From: an uncultured Eubacteriales bacterium
GTDB taxonomy: Bacteria > Bacillota > Clostridia > Christensenellales > Aristaeellaceae
Reading direction: 5' to 3'
DNA length: 61,827 nt
NCBI GenBank assembly: GCA_902785105.1
Contig: CACZXF010000015.1
Coordinates: 1 to 61,827 of the forward strand
Part shown: piece after piece, positions 8,790 to 19,463 of the stretch
Layout: every line of letters starts with the position of its first letter
Numbering within the stretch: position 1 is the stretch's first letter
Made by a program: the position numbers and the translations under genes
The notes under the pieces: model-generated
Databases searched by the model: none
Told to the model about the DNA's origin: nothing
The model's input: the letters and a program-made list of their open reading frames with translations, nothing else

Positions 8790-9802
8790 GGGCGGCACTG
8801 TTTGCCTTCACCGTAAAGGGCAAGGCCACGGCCCTTCGCATCGCCGCCGCGTTGGACGGCTGGGAGCTGTCCCTTCGCGTCCCTGAAAAGCTGAAGGACG
8901 TTCGATTTGAAGCCTATGCCGGTACCCTGCCCGACTATACAGGGAGAGTCTTTGAACGCGACGCGCTGATATACGTCGGCGCGGCGGGCATCGCAGTGCG
9001 GGCCATTGCGCCCCACGTCGCCAGCAAGCGCTCTGACCCGGCGGTGCTGTGCGTGGATGAGAAGGGGCAGTACATCATCCCCATACTCTCCGGCCACATC
9101 GGCGGCGCCAATCGTCTGGCGCGAAGCCTCGCGGCGGCGCTGGACGCCACGCCGGTGATCACCACCGCTACGGACGTCAACGGACGATTTTCGGTGGACA
9201 CCTGGGCCACTGAGCATAACATGGTCATCACCTCCATGCCCCTGGCCAAGCGCGTGTCGGCGGAGATACTGACCCGTGACATTCCTTTCTGGTCGGACGC
9301 GGAACGTTCCGGAAAACTGGTCGACGGCCTCATCTGGTCAAATGCCGGTTCGCTGGGCGTCTGTGTCTCTATAAGGAATTTACATCCCTTTGAGGATACG
9401 CTGTTATTAATTCCGAAGGTTCTGCATGTGGGTTTGGGTTGCCGCCGCGGGACCCCTGCGGAGGCAATCGACGCAGCGATCGAAAAGGTATTTAATGAAA
9501 ATTACCTGCGCAAGGAGGCTGTGGCCGACGCGGCAAGTATTGACGTAAAATCGGACGAAGTCGGGCTGATAACCTGCTGTCGGAACTATGGCTGGCCCGT
9601 CACCTTCTATACTGCGGAGCAGTTGAACGCGGTGCCGGGCGACTTTGCGAAATCTGAATTTGTGAAAAATACCGTGGGCGTGGACAACGTCTGCGAACGC
9701 GCGGCGGCGGCCCCAGGCGGGCGGATCATCGTCCGCAAGACTGCGTTGAACGGCGTGACCGTGGCTGTCGCGGAAGAGAAATGGGGGATTGACTTTGGCT
9801 AA
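8786..9802 (+). CDS. cbiG: Cobalt-precorrin-5A hydrolase
   Basis: A 338-residue CbiG. It opens the delta-lactone of cobalt-precorrin-5A with loss of the C20 two-carbon unit, a step of the anaerobic pathway. The N-terminal domain has LIYVGAAGIAVRAIAPHV and SGHIGGANRLAR; the C-terminal domain has VGLGCRRGTPAE and GRIIVRKTALNGVTVAVAE. It is coupled by overlaps to cobM upstream and cobJ downstream. Confidence 0.95.
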   Translation: MRAALFAFTVKGKATALRIAAALDGWELSLRVPEKLKDVRFEAYAGTLPDYTGRVFERDALIYVGAAGIAVRAIAPHVASKRSDPAVLCVDEKGQYIIPILSGHIGGANRLARSLAAALDATPVITTATDVNGRFSVDTWATEHNMVITSMPLAKRVSAEILTRDIPFWSDAERSGKLVDGLIWSNAGSLGVCVSIRNLHPFEDTLLLIPKVLHVGLGCRRGTPAEAIDAAIEKVFNENYLRKEAVADAASIDVKSDEVGLITCCRNYGWPVTFYTAEQLNAVPGDFAKSEFVKNTVGVDNVCERAAAAPGGRIIVRKTALNGVTVAVAEEKWGIDFG

Positions 9803-10526
9803 ACTGCGCGTGGTGGGCATCGGCCCCGGCGATTATGAGGAAATGACGATCCGGGCGGTCAACGCCCTGAACGCCTGCGACGTCATCGTGGGCTATCACG
9901 TCTATGTGGACCTGGTGAAGGCGCACTTCCCCGACAAGGAATTCTTCACCACGCCCATGCGGAAGGAGGCGGACCGCTGCCGCATGGCGCTGGACCTGGC
10001 CCGTGAAGGCCGGGACGTGGCGATGATCTGCTCCGGCGACGCGGGCATCTACGGCATGGCGGGCCTGATCTACGAGCTTCGCGGGGAGAATGAAACCATC
10101 GAGGTGGAGGTCATCGGCGGCCTGACCGCGGCCACCTCCGGCGGCTGCCGCCTGGGCGCGCCGCTGACCCATGACTTCGCCGTCATCAGCCTGTCCGATC
10201 TGCTGACCCCCTGGGAGACCATCGAAAAGAGGCTGGATTGCGCGGCGGCGGGCAACTTCGGCATCGCCCTCTACAATCCCCGCAGCATGAAGCGCTCGGA
10301 CTATCTGCAAAAGGCCTGCGACATCGTCATGAAGCATCAGTCCCCGGAGACCATCTGCGGCGTTGTGCGCAACATTGGCCGCGAGGGAGAGGAGACGAAG
10401 GTCATGCCCCTCAGGGAATTGAGGGACTACGAGGCCGACATGTTCACCACCGTTTTCATCGGCAACAGTTTCACCAAGGTCGTGGACGGCAAGATGGTCA
10501 CGCCCAGGGGGTATCGGGATGTCTGA
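9795..10526 (+). CDS. cobJ: Cobalt-precorrin-3B C17-methyltransferase
   Basis: A SAM-dependent methylase (CobJ/CbiH) with LRVVGIGPGDYEEMT at the N-terminus, CSGDAGIYGMAGL and GLTAATSGGCRLGAPL. It methylates C17 and contracts the ring. The start is uncertain between TTG at 9795, with a GGGGG tract upstream, and TTG at 9789; both overlap the end of cbiG. It overlaps the next gene by eight bases. Confidence 0.93.
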   Translation: MAKLRVVGIGPGDYEEMTIRAVNALNACDVIVGYHVYVDLVKAHFPDKEFFTTPMRKEADRCRMALDLAREGRDVAMICSGDAGIYGMAGLIYELRGENETIEVEVIGGLTAATSGGCRLGAPLTHDFAVISLSDLLTPWETIEKRLDCAAAGNFGIALYNPRSMKRSDYLQKACDIVMKHQSPETICGVVRNIGREGEETKVMPLRELRDYEADMFTTVFIGNSFTKVVDGKMVTPRGYRDV

Positions 10527-12519
10527 GCTGTGCGTCTTTGCGGGCACCACGGAGGGCCGGCGGCTGGTGGAATTCCTGGCCGGTCAGCCGGTGCGGGTCT
10601 GCGCCTGCGTGGCGACGGAATATGGCGAGACGCTGATCCCCCAGGCCGACAACGTGGAGGTCCGCGCCGGCCGGCTGGACGGTGAGGCCATGCAAAGCCT
10701 GTTCCATGAACGGCACTTTGACATGGTGATCGACGCCACTCATCCCTTTGCCATCGTGGCATCTGATACCATCGCCGGAGCCTGCGACGCCATGGGCGTG
10801 GAATGCCTGCGCTTAAACCGGGACGGCGGCGGCGCGGACGACGAGGCGGTCGTAGTGGGCTCCATTGCAGAAGCTGCCGCCTTTCTGGCGGAACATCCGG
10901 GTGTCGCGCTGCTGGCGACGGGGAGCAAAGAGCTGACACCCTATACCATAGTTCCAGACTATAAAGAGCGCTTCTATCCGAGGGTGCTGCCCATGGCGTC
11001 CTCCCTCGCAGCTTGCGAGGCGGCGGGGTTTGCCCCGGCCCACATCATCGCCATGCAGGGTCCCTTTTCCGTGGACATGAATGTGGCGACTTTGAAGGCC
11101 ATCGGCGCGAAGTGGCTGGTCACCAAGGAATCGGGCAAGAGCGGCGGTTTCGATGAGAAATTGGAGGCCGCCCGACGCGCCGGGGCGCGATGCGTCGTCA
11201 TCGGCCAGCCGAAGCAGCGGCCGGGGCTGGATTATGCCGGGGTGGCACGTCGCCTGGCAGAGCAATACGGCATAAAGCCCGTGCGAGAGGTTGCCGTGGT
11301 TGGCATCGGCATGGGCTCGCCGGAGACGCTGACCTTCGAGGCGGACGCCGCTCTGCGGGATTGCGAGTGCGTCATCGGCGCGAAGCGCATGCTGGAGGCC
11401 GTGGGCCGCTACGGCAAACCCGGCTTTGCGGAGATCGCCCCGGCGAAGATCGTCGCCTGCATGAACGAACACCCGGAATACCGCCGCTTCGCCGTGGTGA
11501 TGTCCGGGGATTCTGGATTCTACAGCGGCACCAAGAAGCTGCTGCCAATGCTGGCAAGTGACAAAGTCCGCGTGATTCCCGGCCTCAGTTCCCTGCAAGT
11601 GCTGTGCGCACGGTGTCAGACGAGCTGGGACGACGTGAAGGCCATCTCCCTCCATGGCCGGGGAGGCTCCGCCGTGCCCGCCCTCAGGGAATACGGTAAG
11701 GTCTTTGCACTGATGGATGGCGCGGACGCGGTCAAGCATATATGCACGGATCTCATTGCCGCCGGCATGGGGGAAGCACGGGTGTCCGTGGGCGAACGCC
11801 TATCCTATCCTGATGAAAAGCTGACCTGCGGCACGGCGCATGAACTGAAGGATTATGCCTGCGCTCCGCTGAGTGCCATCCTTCTGGAATATCCGACACA
11901 GCCTATGCCGCTGCCGGTGGGTCTGCCGGATGAAGCTTTTCTCCGCGAACTGGGCGGTGACAGCGGCAAGGCCGTGCCCATGACAAAATCCGAGGTCCGG
12001 GCGGTCTCCATCGCGAAATTGCGACTGACCCGTAACGCTGTGGTCTACGACATCGGCGCAGGCACGGGATCTGTTTCCGTAGAAGCCGCATTGAACTGCC
12101 CCGAAGGACAAGTTTACGCCATTGAGTGCCGGGAGGACGCCGCCTCGCTCATTGAAAGGAATATTCAGAAATTCGGGCTGAAAAACCTGACGGTTGTGCG
12201 GGGCATGGCGCCCGAAGCCATGCGGGATCTGCCCACGCCGACTCACGCCTTCATCGGCGGCTCCAGCGGGAATATGAATGAAATCATACAGGCGCTGCTG
12301 GACGAGAATCCAAATGTGCGCATCGTCATCAACGCCATCGCGCTGGAATCAGCGGGGGAGATTGCGGACGCGGCGAAGCGCTTCGGCTTCGAGGACTGCG
12401 AGATCGTGCAGATGAACCTTGCCCGGAGCCGTCGCGCGGGACGCTATCACCTGATGACGGGACTGAACCCCATCTACATCGCCGCCATGCAGCGGCGGGA
12501 GGACGAGCATGAAGATTGA
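10519..12519 (+). CDS. Triple fusion: precorrin-6A reductase / CbiE / CbiT methylase
   Basis: A 666-residue protein joining three corrin enzymes. Residues 1 to about 250 are CobK/CbiJ reductase (LCVFAGTTEGRRL, VIDATHPFA, GPFSVDMN). From about 258 it is CbiE methyltransferase (VAVVGIGMGSPETLTFEA). From about 465 it is CbiT, with the SAM motif DIGAGTGSVS at 511. Together they reduce precorrin-6A, methylate C5 and C15, and decarboxylate. CbiE-CbiT fusions (CobL) are common; the added reductase is less so. Its start overlaps cobJ and its end overlaps cbiC. Confidence 0.93.
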   Translation: MSELCVFAGTTEGRRLVEFLAGQPVRVCACVATEYGETLIPQADNVEVRAGRLDGEAMQSLFHERHFDMVIDATHPFAIVASDTIAGACDAMGVECLRLNRDGGGADDEAVVVGSIAEAAAFLAEHPGVALLATGSKELTPYTIVPDYKERFYPRVLPMASSLAACEAAGFAPAHIIAMQGPFSVDMNVATLKAIGAKWLVTKESGKSGGFDEKLEAARRAGARCVVIGQPKQRPGLDYAGVARRLAEQYGIKPVREVAVVGIGMGSPETLTFEADAALRDCECVIGAKRMLEAVGRYGKPGFAEIAPAKIVACMNEHPEYRRFAVVMSGDSGFYSGTKKLLPMLASDKVRVIPGLSSLQVLCARCQTSWDDVKAISLHGRGGSAVPALREYGKVFALMDGADAVKHICTDLIAAGMGEARVSVGERLSYPDEKLTCGTAHELKDYACAPLSAILLEYPTQPMPLPVGLPDEAFLRELGGDSGKAVPMTKSEVRAVSIAKLRLTRNAVVYDIGAGTGSVSVEAALNCPEGQVYAIECREDAASLIERNIQKFGLKNLTVVRGMAPEAMRDLPTPTHAFIGGSSGNMNEIIQALLDENPNVRIVINAIALESAGEIADAAKRFGFEDCEIVQMNLARSRRAGRYHLMTGLNPIYIAAMQRREDEHED

Positions 12520-13138
12520 ACTGGAACGGGTCGCGCCTATGGAGATCGAGGCGCGGAGCTTTGAAATCATCGGGCAGGAGCTGAACAGGCCCATTGACGA
12601 AAAACTGGCCCCCATCATCAAACGCGTGATCCATACCACCGCGGATTTCGACTACGCGGAAAACCTGTGCTTCTCCGAGGGCGTGCTGGATAAGGCGCTC
12701 AAAGCCATTCAGGACGGCGCAGCCATCGTCACGGACACCACCATGGCCATGTCCGGCATCAACAAGAAGGCGCTGGCGAAGCACGGCGGCGAGGCCTTCT
12801 GCTTCATCGGCGATCCCGATGTCGCAGAGGCGGCGAAGGCCGCGGGCAGCACCCGTGCCGTGCAGGCCATGGAGAAGGCGGCCAAGCTGGACCGCCCGCT
12901 GATCTTTGCCATCGGCAACGCTCCCACGGCGCTGATCCACATCTATGAGATGATCTCCGAGGGTAGGCTCGATCCCCGTCTGGTCATCGGCGTGCCGGTG
13001 GGCTTCGTCAATGTGGTGCAATCCAAGGAACTCATCATGACCGCCGACGTGCCCTACATCGTCGCCCGCGGCCGCAAGGGCGGCAGCAACGTCGCCGCCG
13101 CCATCTGCAACGCGCTGCTCTACATGCTGGGGAGATAA
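12509..13138 (+). CDS. cbiC: Cobalt-precorrin-8 methylmutase
   Basis: A 209-residue CbiC/CobH. It moves the C11 methyl group to C12 to form cobyrinate. Family features include EIEARSFEII near the N-terminus, the catalytic-His region KRVIHTTADFDYA, and DTTMAMSGINK. The start has GGGAGGA upstream and lies inside the end of the fused gene. Family identity is clear. Confidence 0.95.
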   Translation: MKIELERVAPMEIEARSFEIIGQELNRPIDEKLAPIIKRVIHTTADFDYAENLCFSEGVLDKALKAIQDGAAIVTDTTMAMSGINKKALAKHGGEAFCFIGDPDVAEAAKAAGSTRAVQAMEKAAKLDRPLIFAIGNAPTALIHIYEMISEGRLDPRLVIGVPVGFVNVVQSKELIMTADVPYIVARGRKGGSNVAAAICNALLYMLGR

Positions 13139-13143
13139 CCGCC

Positions 13144-14280
13144 ATGCTTCGACATTACATCACCAAGGGCGGCAAGACCATGCGCTGCGGCTACACCACC
13201 GGCTCCTGCGCGGCGGGGGCGGCCATGGGCGCGACCAGGTTTTTATTGACAGGAGAAGCCCCGGAGACCGTGGCGCTGGACACCCCGAAGGGCATAAGGC
13301 TGGCGCTGGAGATTCTGAACCCGGAGGCGGGGGAGGGCTGGGCCAAGTGCGCCGTCCAGAAGGACAGCGGCGACGACCCGGACATCACCAACGGCATACT
13401 GATCTACGCGACAGCGGAAAAGATTGCCGATGGCGTAGAGATCGATGGCGGCGAGGGCGTGGGCCGCGTCACGAAGGAAGGTCTCGACCAGCCCGTCGGC
13501 GCGGCGGCCATCAATTCGACGCCCCGCAGGATGATCGACGAAGGCGTCCGTGCGGTCTGTGCGGAATGCGGCTATCCGGGCGGCATAAAGATCACCATCT
13601 CCATCCCCGACGGCAAAGCGCTGGCGAACAAGACCTTCAATCCCCGCATCGGCATCGTGGGCGGCATATCGGTCATCGGCACCACGGGCATCGTGGAGCC
13701 CATGAGCAACGCCGCGCTGGTGGACACCATTAAACTGGAGCTGAGCGTGCTCTCCGCCGGCGGCGCGAAGGGCGTGTTGCTGTGCCCCGGCAACTATGGC
13801 GAGACCTTCGCGAAGGAGACGCTGGGGCTGAACATGACCCGGCAGGTCTCCGTCAGCAACTTCATCGGCGACGGCATCGAGGCGGCGGTGAGTTACGGCT
13901 TTGAGCGCATACTGCTGGTGGGCCACATCGGCAAGCTGGTCAAGCTGGGCATCGGCCTGCACAACACCCACTCCGCCTACGGTGACGGACGCATGGAGAC
14001 GCTGATCGCCTGTGCCCTGGAGTGCGGCGGCGACGTGGAACTGCTCCGTGAAATTTTGAACTGTGTCACCACTGACGCGGCGCTGGAGGCCATAGACAAA
14101 AGAGGACTTTTGTCCCCCGTCATGTCGGTGCTCGGCAGGCGCATACAGGCGTGTCTCGAACGGAAGGTCCCCGTGGGCACCGAGATCGGCTTCATCTGCT
14201 TTACCAACGCAGAGCCCTGGAAGGGCGTGCTGATGCAGAGCGAAAACGCCGACCGGCTGGCGGAGGAGTGGAAAGCGTAA
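13144..14280 (+). CDS. cbiD: Cobalt-precorrin-5B C1-methyltransferase
   Basis: A 378-residue CbiD, specific to the anaerobic pathway; it methylates C1. It has the N-terminal GYTTGSCAAGAAMGAT motif and the later GTTGIVEPMSNAAL. The start at 13144 follows GGGGAG; a second Met at 13180 lies closer to the usual family N-terminus and is possible. It is the last corrin gene. cbiL, cbiK, cbiA, cbiB and the lower-ligand genes are not in this window. Confidence 0.95.
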   Translation: MLRHYITKGGKTMRCGYTTGSCAAGAAMGATRFLLTGEAPETVALDTPKGIRLALEILNPEAGEGWAKCAVQKDSGDDPDITNGILIYATAEKIADGVEIDGGEGVGRVTKEGLDQPVGAAAINSTPRRMIDEGVRAVCAECGYPGGIKITISIPDGKALANKTFNPRIGIVGGISVIGTTGIVEPMSNAALVDTIKLELSVLSAGGAKGVLLCPGNYGETFAKETLGLNMTRQVSVSNFIGDGIEAAVSYGFERILLVGHIGKLVKLGIGLHNTHSAYGDGRMETLIACALECGGDVELLREILNCVTTDAALEAIDKRGLLSPVMSVLGRRIQACLERKVPVGTEIGFICFTNAEPWKGVLMQSENADRLAEEWKA

Positions 14281-15990: not shown

Positions 15991-16812
15991 TCAGTCGATG
16001 ACGCCGCCCTCGACCACAAGGTTGTCGGGATTCACCGCGTCGCCGTAGACGTCCTTGAGCGTAGCTTCGTAATCCGCATGGAAGAAATTCTCGGCGGCCA
16101 GGGCCTTTATTTCTTCGTTGATGTAGTTCAGCACGCTCTCATTGCCCTTCTGCACGGCGGGGGCGATGGTGTCCAGACTGCCCAGGGTCTCGATGCCCAC
16201 GGTGAAGCCGGGATTTTCGAGGGCCCAAGCCAGCACCTCGGTGTTGTCGGTGGACAGGGCGTCGCCGCGGCCGTCCAGCAGGGCGTTGAAGGTCTCCGTG
16301 TAGGTGTCGAACTTCAGAAGGTTCACGTCCGGCTCATTGGCGGTGAACCAGGTCTCGGCGGTGGTGCCCTTGGAGACGATCAGCGTCTTGCCCCGAAGCT
16401 CCTCCAGAGAAGAGATCAGCGCGCTGTCCGGGCTGACCACGCCCAGCGCCACCTTCATGTAGGGCAGCGCGAAGTCCACCACCTCGGCCCGCTCGGGGGT
16501 GACGGTGAAGTTGGCCAGTATGATGTCCACCTTGGCGCTGGTCAGGTATTCCACGCGGTTCGGCGCGTCCACGCTCACCAGCTCCAGCTCCACACCCAGG
16601 TCCTCCGCCAGGCGGCGGGCAAAGACCACGTCGTAGCCCTGATATTCGCCGTTCTCGTCCACATAGCCGAAGGGCTTCTTGTCGGAGAACACGCCGATGG
16701 TCAGCTTGCCGCTCTCCTTGATCTCATCCAGAGTCCGCGCCTGGGCGTCCGCCAGCGCCGCGGGGATCAGTGTAAGGGCCAGAACCAGTACCAACGCAAA
16801 CAGCTTTTTCAT
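15991..16812 (-). CDS. Cysteine-type amino acid ABC transporter substrate-binding protein
   Basis: A 273-residue solute-binding protein. The N-terminal signal (MKKLFALVLVLALT...AALADA) has no obvious lipobox. The mature part includes GVFSDKKPFGYVDENGEYQGYDV, VDIILANFTVTPERAEVVDFALPYM and TLIVSKGTTAETWF. From memory this resembles the Campylobacter CjaA/Cj0982 cysteine-binding protein, so cysteine is the favoured ligand; an alignment is needed. The start at 16812 follows AAAGGAG; the upstream ATG at 16851 is rejected. It is transcribed alone from a promoter at 17069-17097 through a Cys-rich leader and attenuator. Confidence 0.88.
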   Translation of the reverse strand: MKKLFALVLVLALTLIPAALADAQARTLDEIKESGKLTIGVFSDKKPFGYVDENGEYQGYDVVFARRLAEDLGVELELVSVDAPNRVEYLTSAKVDIILANFTVTPERAEVVDFALPYMKVALGVVSPDSALISSLEELRGKTLIVSKGTTAETWFTANEPDVNLLKFDTYTETFNALLDGRGDALSTDNTEVLAWALENPGFTVGIETLGSLDTIAPAVQKGNESVLNYINEEIKALAAENFFHADYEATLKDVYGDAVNPDNLVVEGGVID

Positions 16813-16903
16813 GATAAACGCTCCTTTATATTCATGGTTCGATGGGTTCAAGAGTCAGCGCCGAAGCATCGTACATCGCATCATCCTGTTTTCCTCCCTT
16901 CCG

Positions 16904-16944
16904 AATAAAAACAGCGGGACGGATACGCTTCATCCATCCCGCTG
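16904..16944 (-). terminator. Attenuator-type terminator before the binding protein gene
   Basis: On the minus strand CAGCGGGATGGAT and ATCCGTCCCGCTG (16912-16944) form a 13-position stem with one mismatch, followed by TTTTTATTC. It lies between the Cys-rich leader peptide stop and the binding-protein start, 92 bases before the latter. Read-through is required for expression, so it is a likely attenuator. Confidence 0.85.
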
Positions 16945-16963
16945 CTTTCTGCCCTGGCGCACG

Positions 16964-17029
16964 CTAAGGCAGCCGACAGGTCGATGGACGACACCCCCGG
17001 CAAAAGCAACACATACCAAAGAGCTTCAT
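16964..17029 (-). CDS. Cys-rich leader peptide 1 (21 residues)
   Basis: A short ORF reading MKLFGMCCFCRGCRPSTCRLP, with five Cys among 21 residues, including a Cys-Cys pair. AAAGGAGG sits 8 bases before its ATG (GGAGG at 17038-17042), and a consensus promoter lies about 40 bases further up. It precedes an intrinsic terminator and a cysteine-type transporter gene, the layout of ribosome-mediated attenuation: stalling at Cys codons when charged tRNA-Cys is scarce would favour read-through. GCUGC near its stop can pair with GCAGC in the terminator's 5' arm, a possible antiterminator. No known family was recognised; the function is inferred. Confidence 0.75.
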   Translation of the reverse strand: MKLFGMCCFCRGCRPSTCRLP

Positions 17030-17068
17030 ATGGGATGCCTCCTTTCAATTACCTATCAACATACTAAG

Positions 17069-17097
17069 ATTATATGCAATTCAAGGCTGCTTGTCAA
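17069..17097 (-). promoter_or_regulatory. Consensus promoter of leader 1 / binding protein unit
   Basis: Minus-strand -35 TTGACA (17092-17097), a 17-base spacer and -10 TATAAT (17069-17074), a perfect sigma-A consensus. Such a strong promoter with a terminator behind it suggests control by termination rather than initiation. Confidence 0.88.
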
Positions 17098-17102
17098 CCT
17101 GT

Positions 17103-17852
17103 TTACGATTTTTTAATACTATCGAATTCGAAGGTATTCAAGAACTGCCGGGCGCGCTCGGTCTGCGGGTGGTGGAAGAACTGATCCGGGGCGCCCTCTT
17201 CAGCGATGTGACCGCCATCCAGAAAGATCACCCGATCGGCCACGGCCTCGGCGAAGCGCATCTCATGGGTGACGATCAGCATCGTCATGCCGTCCCGCGC
17301 CAAATCCAGCACCACGTTCAGCACCTCGCGCACCATCTCCGGGTCCAGGGCGGCGGTGATCTCATCCAGTAATAACATGCGGGGGTGCATCAGCAGCGCC
17401 CGAACCAGCGCCACACGCTGCTTTTGTCCGCCGGAGAGCTGCCGGGGCAGCGCGTGGAGCTTGTCGGCCAGACCCACCCGTGCCAGCGCTGCTTTGGCCT
17501 CGGCTTCGACCTCCGCCTTCGGCCGCTTCAACGCCTGAACCGGGCCCAGGGACAGATTGCCCAGCACGTCCATGTGGGGGAACAGATCGTAGCTCTGGAA
17601 CACCATGCCGATCTGCCGGCGCACCGCCACCATATCCCCGCCGCCGACGGGCTTGCCGTCCAGCAATATCTCTCCGCCGTCCGGCTGCTCCAGACGGTTG
17701 ATGCAGCGCAGCAGCGTGCTCTTGCCGCAGCCGCTGGCCCCCACGATGACGATCACCTCGCCCTCCCGCACCGAGAAGGAGATGTCGTTCAGCACGCCCG
17801 CGCCGTCAAAGCGCTTGGTCAGATTGCGGATTTCAAGAACGGTCTTTTCCAT
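17103..17852 (-). CDS. Polar amino acid ABC transporter ATP-binding protein
   Basis: A 249-residue ABC ATPase of the GlnQ/HisP class. Walker A is GASGCGKSTLL, the signature is LSGGQKQRVAL, Walker B is MLLLDEITAAL, and the H-loop is in VTHEM. It energises the two permeases encoded just upstream (six bases between its start and the preceding stop). The binding protein lies downstream in a separate unit; the promoter of that unit overlaps or closely follows the end of this gene. Confidence 0.93.
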   Translation of the reverse strand: MEKTVLEIRNLTKRFDGAGVLNDISFSVREGEVIVIVGASGCGKSTLLRCINRLEQPDGGEILLDGKPVGGGDMVAVRRQIGMVFQSYDLFPHMDVLGNLSLGPVQALKRPKAEVEAEAKAALARVGLADKLHALPRQLSGGQKQRVALVRALLMHPRMLLLDEITAALDPEMVREVLNVVLDLARDGMTMLIVTHEMRFAEAVADRVIFLDGGHIAEEGAPDQFFHHPQTERARQFLNTFEFDSIKKS

Positions 17853-17858
17853 GTTAAG

Positions 17859-18527
17859 TCAGCTCCACTTCTTTTCCAGCCAGCCCGCGGCCAGCGATAT
17901 GGGCCAGCAGGCGAAGAAATACAGGAAGAACACCACGGCGTAGATCCACACCGCGGCCTGAGGCGCGTCGTAGCGGGCGGCGTCGATGATCTGACTGCCC
18001 ACCTTCAACACCTCCACCACGCCGATGAGCATCACCAGCGAGGTGGTCTTGATCATGCGGGTGGCCAGGTTGATGGCCTGGGGGATCAACCGCCGGGCGG
18101 CCTGGGGCAGCAGCACGTAGCGCCAGCTTTGCGCTTTGGTGAGTCCCAGGGCGGCAGCGCTCTCCCGCTGATGGGCGGGGATGGAGGTGATGGCCCCCCG
18201 CACCAGATCGCCCATCTCCCCGGCCCCCCAGAATGTGAACACGATCACCGCCGCGGCTTCCCCGGAGAGCTGGAGATTGAAGGTTTTGGCAAGCCCGAAG
18301 TACACCAGAAACAGCAGCACGAGCTGGGGCACGATGCGCACCGTTTCCAGCCACAGCCGCATGAGTGCGTGAATGACGGGATTTTTCAGCGTCATCAGCA
18401 CGCCCACCGCCAGCCCCAGCACCACGGAAAGAGCTACGGAGATCAGGGACAGCTCAAGCGTCACCCCAAGGCCGCCCATCAGGCGCTGAAAGTTGTTGCC
18501 CTTAAACAGCACGGCCAAATCCTGCAT
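17859..18527 (-). CDS. Polar amino acid ABC transporter permease 2
   Basis: A 222-residue inner-membrane permease with several hydrophobic segments. The EAA loop has the form 'ESAAALGLTKAQSWRYVLLPQA', typical of His/Glu/polar amino-acid (HisM-type) permeases. It overlaps the preceding permease by 26 bases and is followed closely by the ATPase, so all three are translated from one message. Confidence 0.92.
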   Translation of the reverse strand: MQDLAVLFKGNNFQRLMGGLGVTLELSLISVALSVVLGLAVGVLMTLKNPVIHALMRLWLETVRIVPQLVLLFLVYFGLAKTFNLQLSGEAAAVIVFTFWGAGEMGDLVRGAITSIPAHQRESAAALGLTKAQSWRYVLLPQAARRLIPQAINLATRMIKTTSLVMLIGVVEVLKVGSQIIDAARYDAPQAAVWIYAVVFFLYFFACWPISLAAGWLEKKWS

Positions 18528-19167
18528 GGCGAAGCCTCCTTTCCAGCAGCGAAAACGCGATGGACAGCGGCAGCAGCAGCGCCAGATAAGCCACCGTCAG
18601 CATCAGCAGCGCCTCGTCGGTTTTGTAATACATGCCGATCAGATCCTTCGCCACGTACATCAAATCCACCAGCGCCACCGCGCTGAACACGCTGGTCTCC
18701 TTGATCAGGAAAACCGCGTTGGCCCCGATGGCGGGGATGGCGGTCGCCAGCGCCTGGGGGAGTATCACAAAGCGCAGATTTTGGGCCGGGGTCAGTCCCA
18801 GGCACAGCCCCGCCTCGTTTTGCACCGGGTCCACCGCCTCCATGCCGCTGCGCAGGGCCTCGGCCATGTAGGCGCCGCCCAGAAAGGTCAGCCCCGTTAC
18901 GGCGCAGGTCTCCGCCGACAGCTTGATGCCCACCTTCGGCAGGCCGAAATACAGAAAGAAGAGCTGGACCAGCAGCGGCGTGTTCCGCGCCAGCTCGATA
19001 TAGGCTCCGGCGACGCGCCGAACTACAGGCACCTTCGCAAACCGCACCCAACAGCACACCGCGCCTACCACCAGCGACAAAAGTATGCCCGCCGCCCCCA
19101 ATCGGAGCGTCAATCCCGCCGCCTTCACGTACATCGGCAGGAATTTCCTCATGAATTCCGTGTCCAT
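18502..19167 (-). CDS. Polar amino acid ABC transporter permease 1
   Basis: A 221-residue permease of the same family, with the EAA loop 'NEAGLCLGLTPAQNLRFVILPQAL' and ARNTPLLVQLFFLYFGLP, a signature of amino-acid ABC permeases. It is the first structural gene after leader peptide 2 and its terminator, and pairs with permease 2 as a probable heterodimer. Confidence 0.92.
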   Translation of the reverse strand: MDTEFMRKFLPMYVKAAGLTLRLGAAGILLSLVVGAVCCWVRFAKVPVVRRVAGAYIELARNTPLLVQLFFLYFGLPKVGIKLSAETCAVTGLTFLGGAYMAEALRSGMEAVDPVQNEAGLCLGLTPAQNLRFVILPQALATAIPAIGANAVFLIKETSVFSAVALVDLMYVAKDLIGMYYKTDEALLMLTVAYLALLLPLSIAFSLLERRLRHAGFGRAV

Positions 19168-19190
19168 AAGCCATGCCCCCTACATTGACA

Positions 19191-19218
19191 AAAGAAAAAC
19201 AGCGGCACGCGGCCGCTG
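19191..19218 (-). terminator. Attenuator-type terminator before permease 1
   Basis: On the minus strand CAGCGGC-CGCGT-GCCGCTG (19200-19218) followed by TTTTTCTTT. It lies between the Cys-codon leader 2 stop and the permease 1 start, 24 bases before the latter, so transcripts must read through it. Confidence 0.87.
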
Positions 19219-19259
19219 CATACTATGCTTGAAAAACATCATCGGCGCGCGGGCATGGT

Positions 19260-19316
19260 TCACCTCATCCCGCGGCAACACGCCTCCGCGTGCGCGAAAT
19301 CAAACTGATACGTCAT
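19260..19316 (-). CDS. Cys-codon leader peptide 2 (18 residues)
   Basis: A short ORF reading MTYQFDFAHAEACCRGMR with a tandem Cys pair four codons from its end. GGAGG (19325-19329) lies 8 bases before the ATG, and a consensus promoter is just upstream. It is followed by an intrinsic terminator and the permease-permease-ATPase genes. CCGCGGG, which includes bases after the Cys codons, can pair with CCCGCG just beyond the stop, giving alternative folds. Attenuation by cysteine supply is inferred by parallel with leader 1; the two peptides share little sequence beyond the Cys pair. Confidence 0.72.
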   Translation of the reverse strand: MTYQFDFAHAEACCRGMR

Positions 19317-19340
19317 AATACCCGCCTCCATTTGAAAATT

Positions 19341-19369
19341 AGTATATCTCTATATACATATTATGTCAA
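19341..19369 (-). promoter_or_regulatory. Consensus promoter of leader 2 / permease-ATPase unit
   Basis: Minus-strand -35 TTGACA (19364-19369), a 17-base spacer and -10 TATACT (19341-19346). The leader peptide start is about 25 bases downstream of the -10. Confidence 0.87.
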
Positions 19370-19463
19370 TGGGTTTATAGAAACTTAATTCGCTGGTATG
19401 ATTGACGGGGTATACACGGTATGTTTCCGCAGGGACGCTATTCAAACATTTTTACGCAGATAC

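Follow-up and report, generated by a model that had tools for sequence, protein, structure and literature searches.

Two cysteine-codon leaders with attenuator anatomy on the operon of a putative cysteine importer from an uncultured member of the Eubacteriales

Attenuation of transcription through amino-acid leader peptides is textbook knowledge in the Proteobacteria, and polycysteine ORFs of mycobacteria are reportedly leaderless, to judge by the title of a 2020 study by Canestrari. For the Firmicutes, the open-licence PMC papers considered describe few cases, for histidine and leucine: histidine leader attenuators with a leader peptide, a terminator and an antiterminator, some of them from Eubacteriales (PMC9413887; PMC2965389), and the leucine leader of the Staphylococcus aureus ilv-leu operon, for which attenuation is experimentally supported (PMC5794164). 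Leaders with cysteine codons have been described in other groups. In Rhodobacterales the uORFC-8-2 motif upstream of cysS combines an upstream ORF with tandem Cys codons and an intrinsic terminator, and stalling at low levels of charged Cys-tRNA has been proposed (PMC8632094). The cys operons of Mycobacterium are preceded by Cys leader peptides, which according to the excerpted text lack conserved terminator hairpins (PMC1262725). In Clostridium perfringens, cysteine T-boxes (specifier codon TGC) are located upstream of cyst(e)ine transporters and cause cysteine-dependent premature termination, and the same source considers that other mechanisms may exist in clostridia (PMC2940859). Among the matches listed for open-licence PMC full text, no Cys leader attenuator was recognised in Firmicutes.

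Here, we analyse a 61,827-nucleotide stretch, referred to as the window (contig CACZXF010000015.1 of assembly GCA_902785105.1). Its minus strand encodes, in this order, permease 1, permease 2, an ATPase and, beyond an intergenic region that holds a leader, a family-3 solute-binding protein (the receptor), the start of which was assumed to be the ATG at 16812. Together these form an ABC amino-acid transporter operon with two Cys leaders, one before permease 1 (leader 1) and one between the ATPase and binding-protein genes (leader 2) (Table 1). The order permease-permease-ATPase-receptor holds in most related loci in which the contig extends far enough. In two of these, a gene for O-acetylhomoserine sulfhydrylase, above the subfamily cut-off, lies ahead of permease 1 (L039, 422-1726; L092, 1585-2886), and our scan found no permease-1 Cys leader in L092 or in L074, a longer record of the L039 contig. 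Elsewhere in the window, the plus-strand ORFs at about 9789-14280 resemble a cobalamin biosynthesis cluster, as judged from sequence features in the list of ORFs.

Table 1. Positions of the operon genes and leader elements in the window.
Feature	Position	Strand	Basis
Promoter, permease-1 unit (TTGACA-17-TATACT)	19341..19369	(-)	11/12 matches
SD site of leader 1 (GGAGG)	19325..19329	(-)	seen in sequence
Leader ORF 1, MTYQFDFAHAEACCRGMR (then stop)	19260..19316	(-)	Cys-Cys leader in same-genus relatives
Terminator of leader 1 with T-run	19190..19219	(-)	scans; seen in sequence
Permease gene 1	18502..19167	(-)	PF00528
Permease gene 2	17859..18527	(-)	PF00528
ATPase gene	17103..17852	(-)	PF00005
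Promoter, binding-protein unit (TTGACA-17-TATAAT)	17069..17097	(-)	12/12 matches, sigma-70
SD site of leader 2 (GGAGG)	17038..17042	(-)	seen in sequence
Leader ORF 2, MKLFGMCCFCRGCRPSTCRLP (then stop)	16964..17029	(-)	core kept in 18/18 genus members
Putative antiterminator strand in leader 2, GTGTCGTCCATC	16983..16994	(-)	leader:5'-arm complementarity
Putative antiterminator partner in terminator 5' arm, GATGGATGAAGC	16927..16938	(-)	leader:5'-arm complementarity
Terminator hairpin, leader 2	16911..16945	(-)	15 pairs, -26.2 kcal/mol (RNAfold)
T-run, leader 2 terminator	16904..16910	(-)	seen in sequence
Solute-binding protein gene, cysteine type	15991..16812	(-)	PF00497; nearest solved chains 1xt8, 2yjp

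The substrate of the importer was approached through its receptor. No NCBIfam equivalog scored above its cut-off for this protein, with models for Lys/Arg/Orn and for cystine in the lead. The nearest solved chains are 1xt8 (4e-83) and 2yjp (3.9e-81), the next following only at 4.7e-36. The first is described as a cysteine-binding protein of Campylobacter jejuni (PMC4757695) and the second as NGO2014, which serves Neisseria gonorrhoeae as L-cysteine receptor (PMC7170509), so that the nearest solved relatives support cysteine as the probable substrate.

A preliminary description of the intergenic region before the binding-protein gene had listed a perfect promoter, a GGAGG site, an ORF of 21 codons with five Cys codons (two of them adjacent), a terminator hairpin followed by a T-run and, downstream, the gene itself. 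All of these elements were recovered; only the size of the hairpin was different, as RNAfold gives 15 pairs and not the 13 positions claimed. The five cysteines occupy codons 7, 8, 10, 13 and 18. What had been missed is that the same plan occurs a second time, at 19190-19369, where another Cys-Cys leader unit precedes permease 1. In a scan of the full window 14 SD-led short ORFs with a terminator were detected, of which only the two Cys ones were read as leaders.

Within the genus, an orthologous binding protein (88-93% identity) was found in 17 of the 27 other genomes searched. Conservation of the short ORF and its Cys codons in relatives had been named as a check, and the outcome is positive: the Cys-Cys pair of leader 2 is present in all 18 genus members (17 plus the window), the third Cys is replaced in just two of the 18 (by Arg in L039 and by Ser in L043), and Cys-rich leaders recur in other genera. 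The N-terminus is variable. Counted from peptides and DNA, the fifth Cys is kept in 16/18 and the fourth in 3/18. The Cys-codon run is conserved and lies on an operon with a cysteine-type receptor, as in an attenuator. The leaders of L034 and L035 differ in length by one base, which shifts the frame of the tail and takes the last Cys out of it, while the RNA CCTGTCGG is retained; in these two, the tail is preserved more at the level of the RNA than at that of the peptide. At the other end of the operon, a Cys-Cys leader precedes permease 1 in 13 of the 15 same-genus loci with sequence at this position, and the contig ends in two more. A terminator was detected by scan behind nine of these 13 leaders. 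All 15 permease-1 inputs yielded a hairpin ahead of the T-run, with energies between -12 and -22 kcal/mol, by a method that reports the best hairpin in any case.

For the receptor leaders, a fitting terminator was identified by scan in 39 of 41 cases (the window and 40 related leaders), the T-run of L072 being poor as reported; the terminators of L080, for which the scan returned none, and L082, for which it returned a wrong one, were set by hand. In an alignment of 20 leaders from other genera (A3), the covariation score of the terminator was reached by none of 500 shuffles. The preliminary description had pointed out that GCUGC near the leader stop can pair with GCAGC in the 5' arm of the terminator. 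Both motifs are present (GCTGC at 16969-16973, GCAGC at 16941-16945), but GCAGC is absent from the terminator arm of L033, the closest relative, and the pair was rejected as the antiterminator. The sequence comparison gives better support to an antiterminator formed by 16983-16994 and 16927-16938, in which the segment that immediately follows the Cys codons finds its complement in the loop-proximal part of the terminator 5' arm.

When the leaders were paired with their own or with swapped 5' arms, the own pairing was higher (z 4.8, p 5e-5, the floor of 20,000 permutations; 19 representatives chosen from the 41), and for the 3' arm of the same representatives own pairing was not better (p 0.16). 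For single leaders the effect is modest: complementarity to the 5' arm exceeds dinucleotide shuffles (p<0.05) for no more than 10 of the 41 and complementarity to the 3' arm for 2 of 41, and the window itself gives p=0.112, or 0.006 with another score, plain shuffles and 19 sequences. In an unnormalised swap table the cognate advantage is unclear, with several non-cognate arms outscoring the cognate one. In the A3 alignment, 86.5% of the antiterminator cells are paired, compared to at most 54.5% when the strands are slid, and covariation of this element is weak (score reached by 17/500 shuffles). A further hairpin in the same alignment (columns 48-79) covaries, its score being reached by 0/500 shuffles. 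The stop codon of the leader lies inside this hairpin, which would be opened by a ribosome arriving there. When the RNA was folded at equilibrium as far as the terminator loop, it made no difference to 5'-arm pairing in the 41 leaders whether the ribosome sat on the second Cys codon or on the stop (pairing higher for the stall in 20/41; means 0.72 and 0.76). For the permease-1 leaders, cognate pairing showed no gain over swapped pairing (5' arm p 0.999, 3' arm p 0.44). As folding does not discriminate between the two ribosome positions and leader 1 gives no pairing signal, it is the co-evolution seen at leader 2 from which the switch is deduced, and for leader 1 the switch is hypothetical.

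These results bear on whether the ORF could simply be the gene for a small Cys-rich protein that has its own terminator and is unrelated to the gene downstream. Such a gene would account for the promoter, the SD site and the terminator. It would leave unexplained why two such ORFs precede parts of one operon and why the leader co-evolves with the terminator 5' arm. Moreover, in a scan of 16800-19450 the minus strand showed no promoter-like site in the interval from the leader 2 terminator to the binding-protein gene, and the peptide outside the Cys run largely differs among genera. We consider this explanation scarcely credible and treat the ORFs as leaders of the importer genes.

To place the leaders in a wider context, related loci were collected by scanning named genomes with the binding-protein alignment, and the best 80 of 464 confirmed candidates were retained; they include the 17 same-genus loci and two contigs of one isolate (L115 and L116), both of which are counted. 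Named relatives of the importer among these best 80 of 464 matches are mostly Clostridia records. A Cys leader precedes the receptor in 40 of the 80 loci, and the receptor or permease 1 in 51, or 52 if the doubtful L138 is counted, in which a CCC run without a start was found. Since some loci have no sequence before permease 1, 51-52 of 80 is a lower bound; in the remaining 28 or 29 loci no Cys leader was found. Some of the permease-1 leaders were located under a relaxed SD criterion and by visual inspection. When the receptors of the 80 loci and the window were clustered at 80% identity, leaders occurred in 6 of 12 clusters. Leaders from other genera include MKRQMMMCCCMCGSLRPSRRELCLR and MTASSFMMCCVCCFRRPSHLKRCLR, and Anaerocolumna and Herbinix carry permease-1 leaders such as MKFITKQNDIRNIDIKNCCCMCIFCRTE. 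A terminator-like hairpin follows 10 of 11 checked permease-1 leaders of the latter kind, some being weak and the T-run of L094 poor. Between genera, the spacing and number of the cysteines vary, Cys runs are shared, and much of the peptide outside the run differs.

Enrichment was assessed under one set of criteria throughout (an SD match of 4 or more, a length of 8-45 codons and one residue present three or more times within eight). Cys-rich SD-led ORFs were present before the receptor in 35/80 and before permease 1 in 19/67 cases, compared to 4/274 regions ahead of other long ORFs of the same loci; reverse-complement controls gave 2/80 and 1/67, respectively; the loci are related, so these counts are not independent trials. 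Met-rich ORFs were found before the receptor in 16/80 (2/274 in controls). Arg-rich ORFs (41/80 vs 59/274) are common in the controls too. The 40 related receptor leaders were chosen as SD-led short ORFs and thus have open frames by construction, and the promoter scan covers the window. A genome-wide search with the fixed pattern Cys-Cys-x-Cys-Arg/Ser returned 12 matches against 6 in the control, of which only the one in the window was read as a leader.

The composition of the leaders shows further regularities. Many consist of mixed Met/Cys runs (MMMCCCMC, CMCMCMCC). TGT makes up 124 of the 181 Cys codons in the window and 40 related leaders, and of the 38 leaders with a Cys pair, 32 have TGTTGT as their first one. 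For comparison, TGT accounts for 22% of the Cys codons in 45 long window ORFs. The enrichment in both Cys and Met is what might be expected if the nascent peptide could bind soft metals and was itself a sensor of metal or redox state, stalling the ribosome or freeing the mRNA in response to copper, zinc or thiol stress. We regard such a peptide sensor as improbable: the regulated genes encode a cysteine-type importer, the spacing and number of cysteines are not constant while Cys runs recur, and the part further downstream is preserved at the RNA level even where, as in L034 and L035, the last Cys has left the frame.

A palindrome, CCYAY-N7-RTRGG, which overlaps the -35 box or directly follows the -10 box, occurs at position 1412 of L144, in 27 upstream regions among L064-L143 and, with one mismatch, at 19357-19373 of the window. 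By resemblance, it is a candidate operator of an Rrf2-type repressor. A CymR-like repressor could act at the promoter, with the leader and terminator only setting the amount of binding protein relative to the membrane parts. The palindrome is located at promoters in 19/80 receptor and 8/70 permease-1 upstream regions, with 16 matches in 610,022 nt elsewhere, and one of this genome's cysK promoters carries it as well. The genome encodes two Rrf2 regulators above the family cut-off, both below the CymR equivalog cut-off. In the window, however, the site near permease 1 with its one mismatch is the only one, sites of this quality are not above chance there, and neither the Cys runs nor the antiterminator would be accounted for by a repressor. 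Control by a repressor in this form is therefore very unlikely, though a repressor layer and an attenuator layer may coexist. Neither of the two cysK genes above the cut-off in this genome is preceded by a Cys leader.

Taken together, the operon is very probably controlled by ribosome-mediated transcription attenuation keyed to Cys-tRNA. The anatomy, its conservation, the terminators, the co-evolving complementarity at leader 2 and the cysteine-type receptor are what the sequences show. Attenuation of the transporter by a Cys leader, as put forward in the preliminary description, is supported by the conserved Cys pair and the receptor type; we infer that the leaders are translated, that ribosomes stall on them, that transcription terminates there in vivo and responds to cysteine, and that leader 1 acts as a switch at all. 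In the proposed mechanism, when cysteine is plentiful the ribosome would pass the Cys codons, the strong terminator would form and little binding protein would be made. When charged Cys-tRNA is scarce, the ribosome would stall at the Cys-Cys pair, allowing the strand downstream of it to pair with the terminator 5' arm; with this arm taken up, RNA polymerase would read into the binding-protein gene. Leader 1 would place the membrane parts under the same cysteine signal.

What is unusual in these leaders is their Met content, the preference for UGU and the two-site layout. As a tentative and on balance doubtful extension, the two-site attenuator, acting on membrane parts and receptor, might read both sulfur amino acids, with UGU as the slow step, and, in Christensenellales and Lachnospirales (the orders being deduced), replace the cysteine T-box of other clostridia. 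The 41 natural variants allow a comparison of codons, antiterminator and terminator.

With regard to known RNA elements, no T-box, riboswitch or other Rfam family reached the gathering threshold in the window and 39 other sources, with the sole exception of one tRNA in L086. Elsewhere in the genome there are 16 T-box (RF00230) matches, seven of them above the cut-off, so that the organism has T-boxes and, by our reading, leader peptides. Together with the occurrence of leaders in half of the receptor clusters and the cysteine-type importer, this suggests that leader peptides and T-boxes, both of which sense tRNA charge, have been interchanged within the Clostridia.

Similar to the C. perfringens T-boxes (PMC2940859), the control proposed here is placed ahead of a cysteine-type transporter in clostridial relatives; theirs relies on a T-box element with a specifier codon for the tRNA, and a leader ORF is not mentioned in the excerpts of that paper, whereas here we find a leader ORF and, at the Rfam threshold in the window and the 39 other sources, no T-box. 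Like the histidine leaders of Firmicutes, the locus combines leader peptide, terminator and putative antiterminator, but those have histidine codons and precede his genes (PMC9413887; PMC2965389). The ilv-leu leader represents amino-acid leader attenuation in a Firmicute, for leucine and a biosynthetic operon (PMC5794164). Like the leaders of Mycobacterium, as far as the excerpted text describes them (PMC1262725), ours are short ORFs that carry Cys-codon runs and lie ahead of genes of sulfur metabolism; they differ in being SD-led and in having intrinsic terminators. The uORFC-8-2 motif, too, combines an intrinsic terminator with an upstream ORF in which two Cys codons stand in tandem; in its published description (PMC8632094) it belongs to Alphaproteobacteria, precedes cysS and is dominated by UGC, in contrast to the ABC importer, the mostly UGU codons and the two leaders per operon found here. 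The locus thus appears to represent a conserved double Cys leader with attenuator anatomy on the operon of a cysteine-type importer, an instance of ribosome-mediated attenuation, a kind of control that is already known.
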